Notes under the pieces: generated by a model
Seen by the model: only the letters and a program-made list of their open reading frames with translations
Databases searched by the model: none
Told to the model about the DNA's origin: nothing
Translations under genes and position numbers: made by a program
In this document: piece after piece, positions 4,300 through 8,371 of the stretch
How the letters are laid out: the number at the start of each line of letters is the position of its first letter
Position numbering within the stretch: position 1 is the stretch's first letter
From: an uncultured Methylococcaceae bacterium
GTDB taxonomy: Bacteria > Pseudomonadota > Gammaproteobacteria > Methylococcales > Methylomonadaceae
DNA length: 64,000 nt
Reading direction: 5' to 3'
Assembly (NCBI GenBank): GCA_903945375.1
Contig: CAJAVP010000082.1
Span: 1-64,000 of the forward strand

Positions 4300-6285
4300 T
4301 TAATGGACAACGTAGCGTTGATAAAGCATTGCCAGCATATCGCATTCATCTTTTGTCGGCCTTGTCCAGCCGGGGATACCTAAATCCGCTAACACTTGCC
4401 TTCCTTGGCTATCTAGGCTCATATCCAGTAGAACGTTGCTTAATGCAGCGCCCATGTCAATAAGATGCGGAGATACGCTAAATAAATGGAAAGCAAAGGC
4501 GGTTTCACTTTGATCAATTTGACGTAAGTTCTTTTTGGTTAAGCCTGATAGCCCACGATAGGTGTCACTCAGCATAAAAAGGATATCGGCTGATCCTTTC
4601 AATAGCATTTGCAAGGCTTTGATATCGTGACCTGAAAATAAATACTCCATGTTGCCTAAGGACTCGTCATTTTCTTCTAATAAAAATCGACCTAACAAGT
4701 AAACAAAGTTATTAGCGGCAGCCGTCACAATTTTTCCGCCTTGATACTCGCTAAGATGTATGCGAGGGTCATTGGCTCTAACAAGCAAGGTTACCTCATC
4801 GGTTTGGTCAATTGGACGCAATAAGGGCTGAAAGTTATGCTCTAAGAATAAGCGGGTTGCTTCAAAGGGTTTGGTAAAAACAATGTCCATCTCTTCGATT
4901 TTTATTTCACGATCACTCATTGCGCCGTGAATCAATTCTAAGTGGACTTCTTTGCCTATTTGTCGTTGTAAGTAGGTATTAAAGAAATACCAGCCATTCA
5001 TTTGCTGGCTACTTTGCACATTAACCCAAAGATTAAGTTTACCTGTATTGGCAACTGGCGGCGTCGAGAGTGGGCTAGGCATTGCCATAGATGGAGTTGG
5101 TGCTTGCAATTGCGGCGCAGGACTTGGCTTTGCAAAAGGTGTAGGCGTAGTTGAGTTCACTCTCGTTGAGGGTTCAGTCAAGAACCGAGTCAATCCGGTC
5201 ATTTTAAACAGTACGCCTATCATGCGGTTGCTGTTGATGATATGGATTATGACTTGTTGTTTTTGCCAATGCTCAAATAATTTGAGCAATTGCGCTAAGC
5301 CCATAGAGTTGACGCGTTGTACTTGAGCAAAATTGAGCTCTACCTCGCAGTTGGTAGGAACAATATAAAGTGATTCTAGGGGTTTGATAGATTCAACATC
5401 AATAATACCGGCAAAATTAAAACGCTGCTCTAATGCTGTTGCGGAAGGGCTTGGCGTTATCATCAAGCCCGTGAGTGTGGTGAGGTCGATAGCTGGAGCA
5501 GAGGTATTTTGAGAGGCGGCTTCAGTGATAACTCGAGTCGTGCTAGCGGGTGACTGAGTGGGGGTCGATTCTCTGACTGGCGCACTGGGGGTGCTCGCTA
5601 GAAAACGAGTCAATCCCGTCATTTTGAACAGCACAGTAATCATGCGATTGACTTGGCTGATATGAATAACGATATTTTGTTTTTGCCAATGTTCAAACAG
5701 CTTGAGTAGCTGTGCTAAGCCCATCGAATTGACGCGATCGACTTGGGCAAAATTCAACTCTACTTTGCTGTTCGCGGGCAGGCAGTACAACGGATGTAAT
5801 AACTGCACGGCAGCGACGTCAATATTGCCAATTAAGTTAAACTGCTGATTCATCATGTCAGCTGTTGGTGTTGGCGATATTTGTAAAATCGGCGGCACAA
5901 CATCCAATGTAGGTGGAGCGGGCAGGGGATTGGTGTGAGTCTCAACTTTGTGTATTCCGTGTATAGCGTGTTGATCATCTGCAAGCAAGTGTGAAAGGCC
6001 TGTTTGATTGAATAATACACAAACCGTTTGGTTGGCGCGTGTAATGCGAACATTGATTTCTTGTTTTTTCCAGTGCTCAAACAGTTTAAACAACTGCGCT
6101 AGTCCCATTGAATTTATCCATTCGACTTGAGCAAAATTTAACTCGGCGTTGGCTTTGGAGGGTAACACATAAAGCGTTTCCAAAACACGAGAGGAATCTA
6201 CGTCGATGATTCCGATGAGTGCAAATTCTTGTGTCAAAGATTCTGAGCTGGGTTGTTGCTGAATTAGTAACTTCGAGTTAGTCAT
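4300..6285 (-). CDS. triple STAS domains fused to a PhnD-like binding domain
   Basis: This 661 aa protein has three STAS-like repeats at about residues 18-102, 146-230 and 286-370. Each carries the motif NSMGLAQL(F/L)KLFEHW with Ser59, Ser187 and Ser327 where anti-sigma-factor antagonists (SpoIIAA DSSG) are phosphorylated. Repeats 2 and 3 are nearly identical, so they arose by recent duplication. Pro/Thr/Ser-rich linkers join the repeats. Residues about 415-661 look like a PhnD/SsuA-type substrate-binding fold (DIVFTKPFEATRLF, then ADILFMLSDTYRGL), but there is no signal peptide or membrane segment, so it should be cytoplasmic. Its start overlaps the end of the upstream phosphatase/ATPase gene by 8 bases, which makes it the likely partner-switching substrate. 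The STAS call is firm; the binding-domain call and any ligand are inference. Confidence 0.8.
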   Translation of the reverse strand: MTNSKLLIQQQPSSESLTQEFALIGIIDVDSSRVLETLYVLPSKANAELNFAQVEWINSMGLAQLFKLFEHWKKQEINVRITRANQTVCVLFNQTGLSHLLADDQHAIHGIHKVETHTNPLPAPPTLDVVPPILQISPTPTADMMNQQFNLIGNIDVAAVQLLHPLYCLPANSKVELNFAQVDRVNSMGLAQLLKLFEHWQKQNIVIHISQVNRMITVLFKMTGLTRFLASTPSAPVRESTPTQSPASTTRVITEAASQNTSAPAIDLTTLTGLMITPSPSATALEQRFNFAGIIDVESIKPLESLYIVPTNCEVELNFAQVQRVNSMGLAQLLKLFEHWQKQQVIIHIINSNRMIGVLFKMTGLTRFLTEPSTRVNSTTPTPFAKPSPAPQLQAPTPSMAMPSPLSTPPVANTGKLNLWVNVQSSQQMNGWYFFNTYLQRQIGKEVHLELIHGAMSDREIKIEEMDIVFTKPFEATRLFLEHNFQPLLRPIDQTDEVTLLVRANDPRIHLSEYQGGKIVTAAANNFVYLLGRFLLEENDESLGNMEYLFSGHDIKALQMLLKGSADILFMLSDTYRGLSGLTKKNLRQIDQSETAFAFHLFSVSPHLIDMGAALSNVLLDMSLDSQGRQVLADLGIPGWTRPTKDECDMLAMLYQRYVVH

Positions 6286-8371
6286 ATGTTTTTACAGCCT
6301 CGTTGAGTTCGCTGTGAAATAAGAATTGAAAACCTTTGTCAATTTCAGGATCAAAGGGATGCTTAAAATCCATAAAAGCGCAAACTTGAGTTTGCTTAAA
6401 GGGGAAAACACGCAGTTGTAAATAGTCAGACATGCGCCAAATTAAATAAAGCCCACCGCCACCTACCCCAGAATCGAGTCCTATACCTTGAACATTACGA
6501 GACAAGCGATTGAGAAATATATTAGGCGTTAATGTTCCCCAGTTGTCCGTCAGTGAAATGCCGAGCAGACCATTTTGAATAGAAACATCCAGTCGCAAAA
6601 ACTCATCGCTGTTGAGTTCACGTGAGGTACCTTTTGGATAAAGAGGACGACCTTTGCCGTCGCGTGGTGCGCCACACAGTCCATTTTCAATCAGCTCATC
6701 TAATAGGAAAATAGCCGCATCTAAGCGGTCGGGGTTGGCAATGTCCTGTTCTTGTAGCCACGCATCGACTTCATTGATAATAAAGGCTTTATCTTCGCTA
6801 TGGGTAAATTGAAATTCTCGACGCTGCTCGGGATAACGCAACAGCATAGCGAGATCGTCCGTGTAGTGTTTGTGGTGTTGAGTGAGTAATTCTCCCCAGC
6901 CTAGCTGGTCGTTGATAGGATGGTTTTGCAATAACACGCGCCGAATACCCTGTGCTGAGAGGCTAGGAATTATATCTGCGAAGTTTTGTTCGGCTAGTAA
7001 GACAACCGCTTGACGTTGAATGCGTGGCGCGACTATTTTGGGATTGGCTCGATAAAATGAATCGGTGATGTGAATGGCTTCTAGCTGGTCAGAATCCTCA
7101 TCGATAGTTTGATTGCTACTACCGAGTCCTGTTGTTTTTTCAACGTGTTCGACACAAAAAATAGTGACATCATCATGAAAAATAGAGCGACCCAAAAAGT
7201 TGCTTAATGATAATAATAGGTTTTTATTTAAGGTTTCAATCTCGCTGTCGCCGTGTTGAATCAGAATTTCTTCAAGACGTTCGTAGCCAAAACATTCGCC
7301 GTGTTGATTTTCTTCTTCTACGATACTATCAGTATAAAGAAACAGTCGATCGCCTAAATCAATCTCTGTTGTTTCTTGTTCATATTCCGTCATGGCATTT
7401 TTGCCTAATGGCAAACCACCGAGTTCCAAGCTTTCTAGCTGACTCAGCATGGCACGGTAAAGATAGGCAAATTGATGGCCGGCATTCGCATAACGCAGTT
7501 CACCTGTACGCGTATCTAAACAAATGGCAAACATGGTCATCAGTAAGGTTTGATGCGCGGTATTGAAGATAATATTACTTAAGCGCGATAAGATTTTACT
7601 AGGCTCTTTCTCTTTTTCTGATTCAAGAAAGTTTACCCCTGCTTTCGCTGCACAAACAATCGTGCCGGCAGCAATACCATGACCGCTGACGTCGCCAATC
7701 AAAATCACTGCCCAACGCCCATCGATCATGTAATAGTCATAAAAGTCCCCCCCAATTTCACTCGAGGTAATCATGGTCGACAAACCGCGTATGCCGGGTA
7801 ACTCGATTTGAGGTGGGCGTAATAGATTTTTTTGCAAAGCCGCAGCGTTAGCAACTTCATCGTTAAGGCGGGTGCTCAGACTTTGCATAGTCTCAATCAA
7901 ATCACCTTGAGATTGAGACATTTTGAGCATCATGTCTGCCACTTTAACAATCCCTAGAATATTGTTTTGACCAATAACAGGAAGGGCTTCGTATTTAATG
8001 GCGGGGTCTCGATTTAAAAAATCTACAATCACTTGATCGATTCGATCTTCTGAATTAGCAATCAGTGGCGCTACAAAAATATCCGCATTACCAACCAACA
8101 GAATATCTAGGCTTTTTCGAGCATATAACTCACGTGCAAAGGCACGCGTCATCAGATTGAGAAAGTTACGTCGAGAAATTAAGCCAAAGTATTTGTTGTT
8201 GGCATCCATTATAGGAAGAGCGACCAAATCCGCTTGGGTCAAAAAAAGATTAAGAACCTCTAAAATAGGGGTTTCAAGTGTTATGGGTTTCACTGCTTGG
8301 GTTAATTCAAGAACCCTAGGGACATAAAATCCAGAAGAATTGTTATTATCACTTTTTTGATTATCAGGCAT
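6278..8371 (-). CDS. CBS - SpoIIE/PP2C phosphatase - RsbW-like ATPase fusion protein
   Basis: The 697 aa cytoplasmic protein has paired CBS domains (about 25-155), a short coiled segment (about 155-185), a PP2C/SpoIIE phosphatase (about 195-408) and a C-terminal GHKL ATPase of the anti-sigma-factor kinase type (about 520-672). Phosphatase metal ligands are visible in GGDFYDY (Asp209), GDVSGHG (Asp227) and HDDVTIF (Asp400/401). The ATPase has the N-box DELIENG (Glu559, Asn563), DNWG (Asp609) and GGGGLYLI. Holding both phosphatase and kinase-like parts, it could set the phosphorylation state of the STAS protein encoded immediately downstream. CBS domains commonly bind adenine nucleotides, so energy state may be the input (inference). 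The ATG directly abuts a 16-bp palindrome and has no visible Shine-Dalgarno; an in-frame TAA two codons upstream excludes a longer form. Confidence 0.85.
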   Translation of the reverse strand: MPDNQKSDNNNSSGFYVPRVLELTQAVKPITLETPILEVLNLFLTQADLVALPIMDANNKYFGLISRRNFLNLMTRAFARELYARKSLDILLVGNADIFVAPLIANSEDRIDQVIVDFLNRDPAIKYEALPVIGQNNILGIVKVADMMLKMSQSQGDLIETMQSLSTRLNDEVANAAALQKNLLRPPQIELPGIRGLSTMITSSEIGGDFYDYYMIDGRWAVILIGDVSGHGIAAGTIVCAAKAGVNFLESEKEKEPSKILSRLSNIIFNTAHQTLLMTMFAICLDTRTGELRYANAGHQFAYLYRAMLSQLESLELGGLPLGKNAMTEYEQETTEIDLGDRLFLYTDSIVEEENQHGECFGYERLEEILIQHGDSEIETLNKNLLLSLSNFLGRSIFHDDVTIFCVEHVEKTTGLGSSNQTIDEDSDQLEAIHITDSFYRANPKIVAPRIQRQAVVLLAEQNFADIIPSLSAQGIRRVLLQNHPINDQLGWGELLTQHHKHYTDDLAMLLRYPEQRREFQFTHSEDKAFIINEVDAWLQEQDIANPDRLDAAIFLLDELIENGLCGAPRDGKGRPLYPKGTSRELNSDEFLRLDVSIQNGLLGISLTDNWGTLTPNIFLNRLSRNVQGIGLDSGVGGGGLYLIWRMSDYLQLRVFPFKQTQVCAFMDFKHPFDPEIDKGFQFLFHSELNEAVKTYD

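Follow-up and report, generated by a model that had tools for sequence, protein, structure and literature searches.

Partner switches are known mostly from the control of sigma factors and, in a few cases, of cyclases. In HsbR/HsbA of Pseudomonas and CrsR/CrsA of Shewanella, PP2C and GHKL domains are carried by one protein that acts with a phospho-Ser STAS partner (PMC6482189), and SypE of Vibrio fischeri is a dual serine kinase/phosphatase of the STAS protein SypA (PMC8256260). Rv1364c (3ke6) likewise combines, in a single chain, a PP2C domain and, after it, an RsbW-like domain. The locus described here lies in a window of 64,000 nucleotides, the whole stretch of DNA analysed, on contig G000:C82 of an uncultured Methylococcaceae genome (G000; 3.59 Mb over 133 contigs). 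Its two genes encode an enzyme of 697 amino acids (aa) with a CBS pair, a PP2C/SpoIIE phosphatase and a GHKL ATPase, and a 661 aa protein in which three STAS domains are fused to a cytosolic domain of the periplasmic binding protein (PBP) fold. New here are the STAS-PBP fusion and the kinship of its PBP with standalone PBPs from operons of MglA-type GTPases. As a partner switch the pair is well supported; that its PBP most likely works with a system of MglA-type GTPase, roadblock, PAS and cytosolic PBP proteins is a reading to which we give an even chance. The features of the locus are as follows.

4300..6285, minus strand: 661 aa protein with three STAS domains, Pro/Thr-rich linkers and a cytosolic PBP-fold domain (open reading frame (ORF) and Pfam)
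6278..8371, minus strand: 697 aa protein with CBS pair, PP2C/SpoIIE and GHKL ATPase, a bifunctional phosphatase/kinase candidate (ORF, Pfam and fold match)
6278..6285, minus strand: 8-base overlap of the 697 aa and 661 aa genes (ORF coordinates)
7907..8308, minus strand: CBS pair, residues 22-155 (PF00571 in 2 stretches, E 3e-8)
7142..7879, minus strand: PP2C/SpoIIE phosphatase, residues 165-410 (SpoIIE Pfam, PF07228, E 1e-36)
6836..7072, minus strand: alpha/beta segment between PP2C and GHKL, residues 434-512, without a Pfam match
6302..6835, minus strand: divergent RsbW-type GHKL ATPase, residues 513-690 (fold match and conserved motifs)
5974..6270, minus strand: STAS 1, residues 6-104, with the Ser59 codon at 6109-6111
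5593..5886, minus strand: STAS 2, residues 134-231, with the Ser187 codon at 5725-5727
5173..5466, minus strand: STAS 3, residues 274-371, with the Ser327 codon at 5305-5307
4303..5040, minus strand: PBP-fold (PF12974) domain without signal peptide, sister clade of the PBPs of MglA-type GTPase operons

Compared with HsbR and CrsR, whose input is a receiver, the input here is a CBS pair or, in a paralogous type of pair, a membrane/PAS part, and the STAS partner is an array of one to three copies fused to a PBP. An N-terminal receiver of the HsbR/CrsR type was found neither in the window's enzyme, where the CBS pair stands, nor in the membrane/PAS enzyme of locus L114. Unlike the 661 aa protein, SypA as described in PMC8256260 is a STAS-only protein with no PBP; as here, its target is unknown. 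The locus differs from Rv1364c in its separate STAS gene and its CBS input. The union of PP2C and kinase in one enzyme is already known from HsbR, CrsR and SypE (PMC6482189, PMC8256260) and is not the exception that an earlier note, made from the letters of this DNA alone, had taken it for.

The enzyme and the STAS array

The two genes share 8 bases, as the earlier note had stated, and its domain order for the enzyme was borne out by Pfam for both CBS copies and SpoIIE, and by a fold match to 3ke6 together with HATPase_c_2 matches in the family for GHKL. The PP2C motifs GGDxYD, GDVSGHG, TD and DD, whose conserved residues we take to be metal-binding, are invariant in all 31 rows of enzyme alignment A2 (31 of 41 enzymes). 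Equally invariant in these rows are E559, N563, D609 and the G-rich motif 635-641 of the GHKL part, in which DNWG stands where DxGxG is usual. This part gave no Pfam match in the window's protein; HATPase_c_2 matches 15 of 24 family members scanned, with the one full-length member scanned scoring below the curated cut-off, and a profile of the GHKL region found no PDB sequence at E 1. The predicted 697 aa model matches the RsbU-RsbW structure 3ke6 with a Z score of 25.1 (332 residues aligned, root-mean-square deviation (rmsd) 18.6), spanning both catalytic domains. In each fold search a single domain accounted for most of the matches, so that the STAS part and segment 434-512 were barely probed. 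This segment is common to both pair types and is less conserved in the sister genomes G072 and G133.

In the 661 aa protein, Pfam detected STAS in three stretches (PF01740, PF13466; E 3e-21) as well as the phosphonate-binding-like part, both of which had been read by eye before. With the anti-sigma factor antagonist model TIGR00377 the protein reaches 77 bits, above the cut-off of 53.45, a whole-protein score over the three repeats. Ser59, Ser187 and Ser327 had been placed at the phospho-site, rightly so: each lies within N-S-M-G, and the family profile aligns the STAS Ser with that of D-S-T-G in the anti-sigma-B antagonist 6m36 (an RsbV-type structure), presumably the phosphorylated one. N-S-[MIL]-G is kept in 63 of 63 repeats from 41 proteins; the search profile was made from copies with the motif and was thus biased against copies lacking it, though able to find them. 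Binding and release of an anti-sigma/kinase partner by the STAS units is a putative function. In its domains and residues the pair is built like a functioning switch of kinase, phosphatase and antagonist. This agrees with the former picture of a self-contained PP2C/GHKL enzyme acting on a STAS array.

Among 21 CBS-type proteins, seven have three STAS copies, eight have two, five have one, and one is truncated after the first, while all 20 membrane-type STAS-PBPs have a single STAS. Since copy number differs by lineage, it is a matter of tuning and not the essence of the switch; multiple copies could raise avidity or grade the response, as already proposed in the earlier note. Repeats of one protein are 36-76% identical. 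In the repeat tree (48 rows: all 43 CBS-type and 5 of 20 membrane-type repeats; bootstrap not fully settled), repeat 1 of the seven triple arrays forms one clade (100/99), and the array therefore seems to be old, kept and not homogenised. Recent duplication or homogenisation of the repeats was also considered and finds no support in the repeat tree or in the DNA of the window, where no tandem repeats were found.

Distribution of the pair

A genome survey for the fused pair had been suggested earlier. By hand count, a STAS-PBP pair or part of one is present in at least 49 of 201 genomes of the window's family, the CBS type in at least 28 and the membrane type in at least 42, some entries of these hand-compiled sets being fragments (e.g. 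the CBS type of G114 and the membrane type of G123). The membrane-type enzyme has about 900 aa and consists, in L114, of a hydrophobic N-terminal part, PAS, PP2C and GHKL. In each of the first 40 loci, 20 of the CBS type and 20 of the membrane type, the genes for the enzyme and the STAS-PBP are neighbours. In a second set of 20 membrane-type loci the enzyme is followed by the STAS part in all but one, L150, which ends at a contig edge. STAS is fused to PBP in all 40 full-length proteins among 41, L087 being cut by a contig end.

Outside the family the fusion is rare. A full STAS-PBP was found in 2 of 369 class genomes (G000 and G372; E 1e-30), the other class matches being standalone PBPs, and in 1 of 398 phylum genomes (G000; E 1e-60). 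G372, from a family with STAS-PBP in one of two genomes, is the only genome outside the window's family in which the full fusion was seen, and there the enzyme adjoins it. When wider contigs were scanned with the 697 aa protein, 11 loci came up. One, L009 (a Methylovulum metagenome-assembled genome, 81% identical), is an orthologue, and the other ten are Firmicutes SpoIIE proteins that match around the PP2C part only. Methylovulum is assigned to Methylococcaceae by NCBI, the family name in GTDB being Methylomonadaceae. The pair is thus a conserved two-gene module of this methanotroph family. Conserved neighbours were considered as targets of the CBS-type loci and rejected: an lpxD-like gene occurs at 11 of 20, moaC- and moaE-like genes at 8 of 20, and they are absent elsewhere.

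The PBP-fold domain

The Phosphonate-bd profile (PF12974) matches residues 422-646 of the 661 aa protein (E 4e-25). The highest 19-residue Kyte-Doolittle mean is 1.17 in the first 60 residues, with no hydrophobic start, and 1.34 overall; by this simple test neither a signal peptide, as noted before, nor a transmembrane segment is expected. In the PBP tree, the 40 STAS-PBP domains form one clade (100/99), which is joined (98/98) by 18 standalone cytosolic PBPs of about 248 aa. Three more standalone PBPs branch outside, and the whole cytosolic set is set apart (100/100) from 15 other PF12974 proteins, several of which have long branches, that of L174 being extreme. The tree was made without L125 and L181 (no match) and without L180, L191 and L192 (copies of included STAS-PBPs). 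Among PF12974 proteins of 13 genomes, a hydrophobic start occurs in 0 of 11 tested near the standalone seed and in 11 of 15 others; for L168, L174, L177 and L184, all among the others, the chosen ORF has no hydrophobic start.

The loop S-x-S-G, which we assume to be the anion-binding loop of PF12974 proteins, is absent by eye at the aligned place in the STAS-PBPs and the cytosolic clade. It is present in 4 of the 15 other rows and so is not universal there, and [ST]x[ST]G occurs elsewhere in the sequence of 9 of 40 STAS-PBPs. Because the clade is signal-less in the tree and the loop is replaced, the STAS-PBP domain is best read as a cytosolic PBP lineage and not as a displaced transporter part. 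Its former description as a PhnD-like domain therefore stands for the PF12974 profile and the cytoplasmic PBP fold, while the name itself misleads.

The predicted PBP model (mean pLDDT 83) is closest to XAC2383 (5ub3; Z 21.7, rmsd 3.1, 244 residues aligned) and ArrX (6x8w; Z 21.6, rmsd 3.5, 239 aligned), and within 1 Z unit of them, in effect tied, are the transport PBPs HtxB/PtxB (Z 20.9); AioX (6esv) follows with Z 19.1. XAC2383, ArrX and AioX are periplasmic PBPs that serve signalling; unlike them, the PBP described here lacks a signal peptide and is fused to STAS. Because XAC2383 and ArrX tie with HtxB/PtxB, the modelled fold alone would not separate a sensor from a transporter. Two segments of the PBP are near-invariant in the family and, by analogy with these folds, would line the cleft. 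The small cytoplasmic ligand proposed earlier is doubtful, and the ligand, if any, is not predictable as phosphonate.

Probable link to MglA-type GTPase operons

Roadblock/LC7 and PAS genes lie ahead of 13 of the 16 standalone PBPs from the class scan, and in 11 of these 13 cases the short flank also contains p211. At L114 and L139, where the stretch was read further, the operon includes a small GTPase and a protein of 407-415 aa. According to Wuichet and Sogaard-Andersen (PMC4316618), Group 3 MglA systems comprise a conserved protein (predicted to be receiver-like and wHTH (winged helix-turn-helix)-like), a small GTPase and one or two MglB/roadblock proteins. The operon matches these systems, a label given by gene content and not by tree. 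Unlike in the operon described here, PBP, phosphonate, PAS and STAS parts are not mentioned in the main text of that survey, and its section on signal transduction links does not describe a signal input to Group 3.

Signal-less PBP-fold proteins are regular members of roadblock/PAS operons in the nine gammaproteobacterial families sampled (L139:2348-7440, L114:3465-12109, L122-L133), with an MglA-type GTPase also present where read further; profile libraries call them phosphonate transporter subunits. No roadblock gene was found in the flanks of about 1.5 kb of the cytosolic PBPs L120, L121 and L134, nor in the wider stretch L140 read for L134. In G372 (L140:6464-7713), the gene ahead of a related cytosolic PBP of 278 aa encodes not a roadblock protein but one of 128 aa that resembles an SCP2-type sterol carrier.

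The pair itself is found beside these genes in a few places. In L114 (G017), a membrane-type pair lies within the operon between the p211 and roadblock genes, and in L106 (G074) a roadblock gene is directly upstream of a membrane-type pair. In L109, a shortened roadblock gene (L109:11397-11693) precedes the pair; an internal stretch is missing from it, while the same-genus copy in L106 is full-length, and the PF03259 search did not report it. With 74 roadblock matches in 38 genomes, such adjacency is unlikely by chance, yet it concerns 3 of 40 loci in two genera.

Among the matches listed, the GTPase occurs in 104 of 201 family genomes: in 45 of 49 pair genomes against 59 of 152 others (Fisher 2e-11), and 15 of 15 pair genera fall within the 24 of 29 genera that have it (p 0.017). 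These tests are uncorrected for phylogeny and were made on hand-made lists, and the GTPase cut-off of 1e-30 admits weaker paralogues. The pair genomes without GTPase are G123 (74% complete), G125 (90%) and the sisters G072 and G133 (99 and 98%); no roadblock match was found in G072, G133 and G125, G123 being outside that search. The idea that the pair depends obligatorily on the operon was ruled out, as G072 and G133 keep a CBS-type pair without it.

In these two sisters the STAS serines are kept, while 12 of 42 otherwise invariant PBP columns are changed in both. The losses elsewhere are 0 of 19 in the last STAS, 0 of 62 in PP2C, 2 of 42 in GHKL and 2 of 9 in the middle segment, so that PBP loss exceeds that of STAS (p 0.012) and that of STAS, PP2C and GHKL together (1e-6). 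Invariant columns were taken from 39 rows for STAS and PBP, alignment A1 being without L087 (truncated) and L109, and from 31 rows for the rest. Of the 12 lost columns, five fall within residues 428-441 and three within 527-535, a stretch that overlaps the counterpart, in the alignment, of the S-x-S-G loop with its helix. As controls, 17 other rows or sister pairs were examined, and 16 have lost at most one PBP column; the pair L100/L101 has lost 4 of 44 GHKL columns, with only L101 in that alignment. In the SecA tree (24 rows for 28 genomes; G158 and G004 had no match, and G170 and G188 only fragments), G072 and G133 nest with the window's own species (99/95). The four genomes without GTPase in this tree (G072, G133, G124 and G164) need at least two changes, as G124 and G164, with neither type of STAS-PBP pair, stand elsewhere. 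The PBP is thus not maintained in the one complete lineage that has the pair and lacks the GTPase. This one decay event (G072/G133) and one joint absence (G124/G164) suggest a functional tie between the pair and the GTPase, a likely link that goes beyond the earlier note.

Proposed mechanism and alternatives

A signal would enter the 697 aa enzyme through the CBS pair, or through the membrane/PAS sensor in the paralogous pair, and the balance of GHKL kinase and PP2C phosphatase would set the phosphorylation of one to three conserved STAS serines. Depending on the phospho-state of these serines, the STAS units would either keep the kinase domain bound or remain unbound themselves. These steps, from input to STAS phospho-state, are modelled on established partner switching (HsbR/HsbA and SypE/SypA; PMC6482189, PMC8256260), and both the enzyme activities and the direction of the switch are those that we infer from the sequences. 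Tuning of the CBS input by nucleotides, as proposed before, is doubtful given the membrane/PAS input of the paralogous pair. The cytosolic C-terminal PBP would be the effector or sensor end of the module. It most likely works with the GTPase/roadblock system of the same genomes, usually encoded at another locus, either by docking on a GTPase-system protein, which would make the link physical, or by sharing that system's ligand. A more specific version, which we regard as tentative, is that the phosphorylated STAS array controls a PBP that competes or pairs with the operon PBP and so drives the Ras-like GTPase, with STAS number setting the gain.

If true, such a wiring of serine phosphorylation to MglA-type GTPases would connect two realms of signalling, and a single circuit would bring together the phosphorylation switch, the GTPase cycle and inputs from CBS or the membrane. 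The finding also names a testable partner and a cytosolic PBP family that profile libraries mislabel as periplasmic phosphonate transport. Among the matches listed from the open-access literature, titles and abstract starts held nothing on a STAS-PBP fusion or a GTPase link.

Besides the uncorrected tests, several points weigh against a link with the GTPase. The 59 pairless genomes among 152 that carry it mean that the GTPase does not need the pair. In G125, a 90% complete draft, a membrane-type pair occurs with no detected roadblock or GTPase gene and its PBP is not decayed, with a branch about as short (0.15) as that of the sister (0.13). The decay concerns one lineage, whose SecA stem is rather long (0.26) and whose genomes are small (2.8-2.9 Mb); its likeness to relatives is unusually low in STAS, CBS and the middle segment as well. 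One fast control row, L115, has lost 8 of 36 PBP columns, but also 13 of 75 in PP2C. Roadblock genes stand beside few pairs (3 of 40 membrane-type loci, 2 genera), no roadblock, GTPase, PAS166, p211, p247 or DUF407 gene was found in the 21 CBS-type stretches including the window, and most pair loci have no conserved neighbour. As to the switch itself, the divergent GHKL could bind instead of phosphorylating.

That most pair loci lie away from the GTPase operon would suit a ligand-gated switch with a target of its own (a sigma factor, anti-sigma factor or cyclase), in which the PBP responds to an anion or metabolite of the cytosol and the association with the GTPase reflects the history of the lineage and has no functional meaning. 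Such a role would also fit the likeness of the PBP to the anion-binding XAC2383, ArrX and HtxB/PtxB, near AioX, and the two near-invariant segments that, inferred from the fold, would line its cleft. This account is rather unlikely, as the S-x-S-G loop is missing at the aligned place, and both the PBP decay after operon loss and the pair within the operon of L114 are left unexplained. Ordinary control of a sigma factor such as RpoS or FliA in the manner of HsbR/HsbA or CrsR/CrsA, with extra STAS copies and an accessory PBP, shares the layout of input, PP2C and GHKL with a phospho-Ser STAS (PMC6482189). It is improbable: STAS is fused to PBP in 40 of 40 full-length proteins, and among the listed neighbours of the 40 loci, inspected by eye and for the most part not profile-searched, no gene for a sigma or anti-sigma factor was apparent. 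One to three tandem STAS domains on long flexible linkers might instead build a stressosome-like multimer or scaffold whose assembly is tuned by phosphorylation; this is very improbable, since proteins with a single STAS are common (20 of 20 membrane-type and 5 of 21 CBS-type ones, plus one truncated) and no array is therefore required.

Genomic surroundings

Aconitase-family, isopropylmalate, FimV-like, histidinol dehydrogenase, cytochrome b, 2-oxoglutarate dehydrogenase and SecA genes are found at window:13886-48797. With such ordinary housekeeping genes around it, the window's pair looks chromosomal; mobile elements as such were not searched for. Chemosensory genes, encoding CheR, a CheA-like kinase with a CheW domain and a methyl-accepting protein, follow at window:49680-56265. 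On the other side, a 325 aa protein at window:348-1325, with no Pfam match at 1e-5, looks secreted, and its likely mature end begins with His. By eye it resembles copper-dependent lytic polysaccharide monooxygenases.

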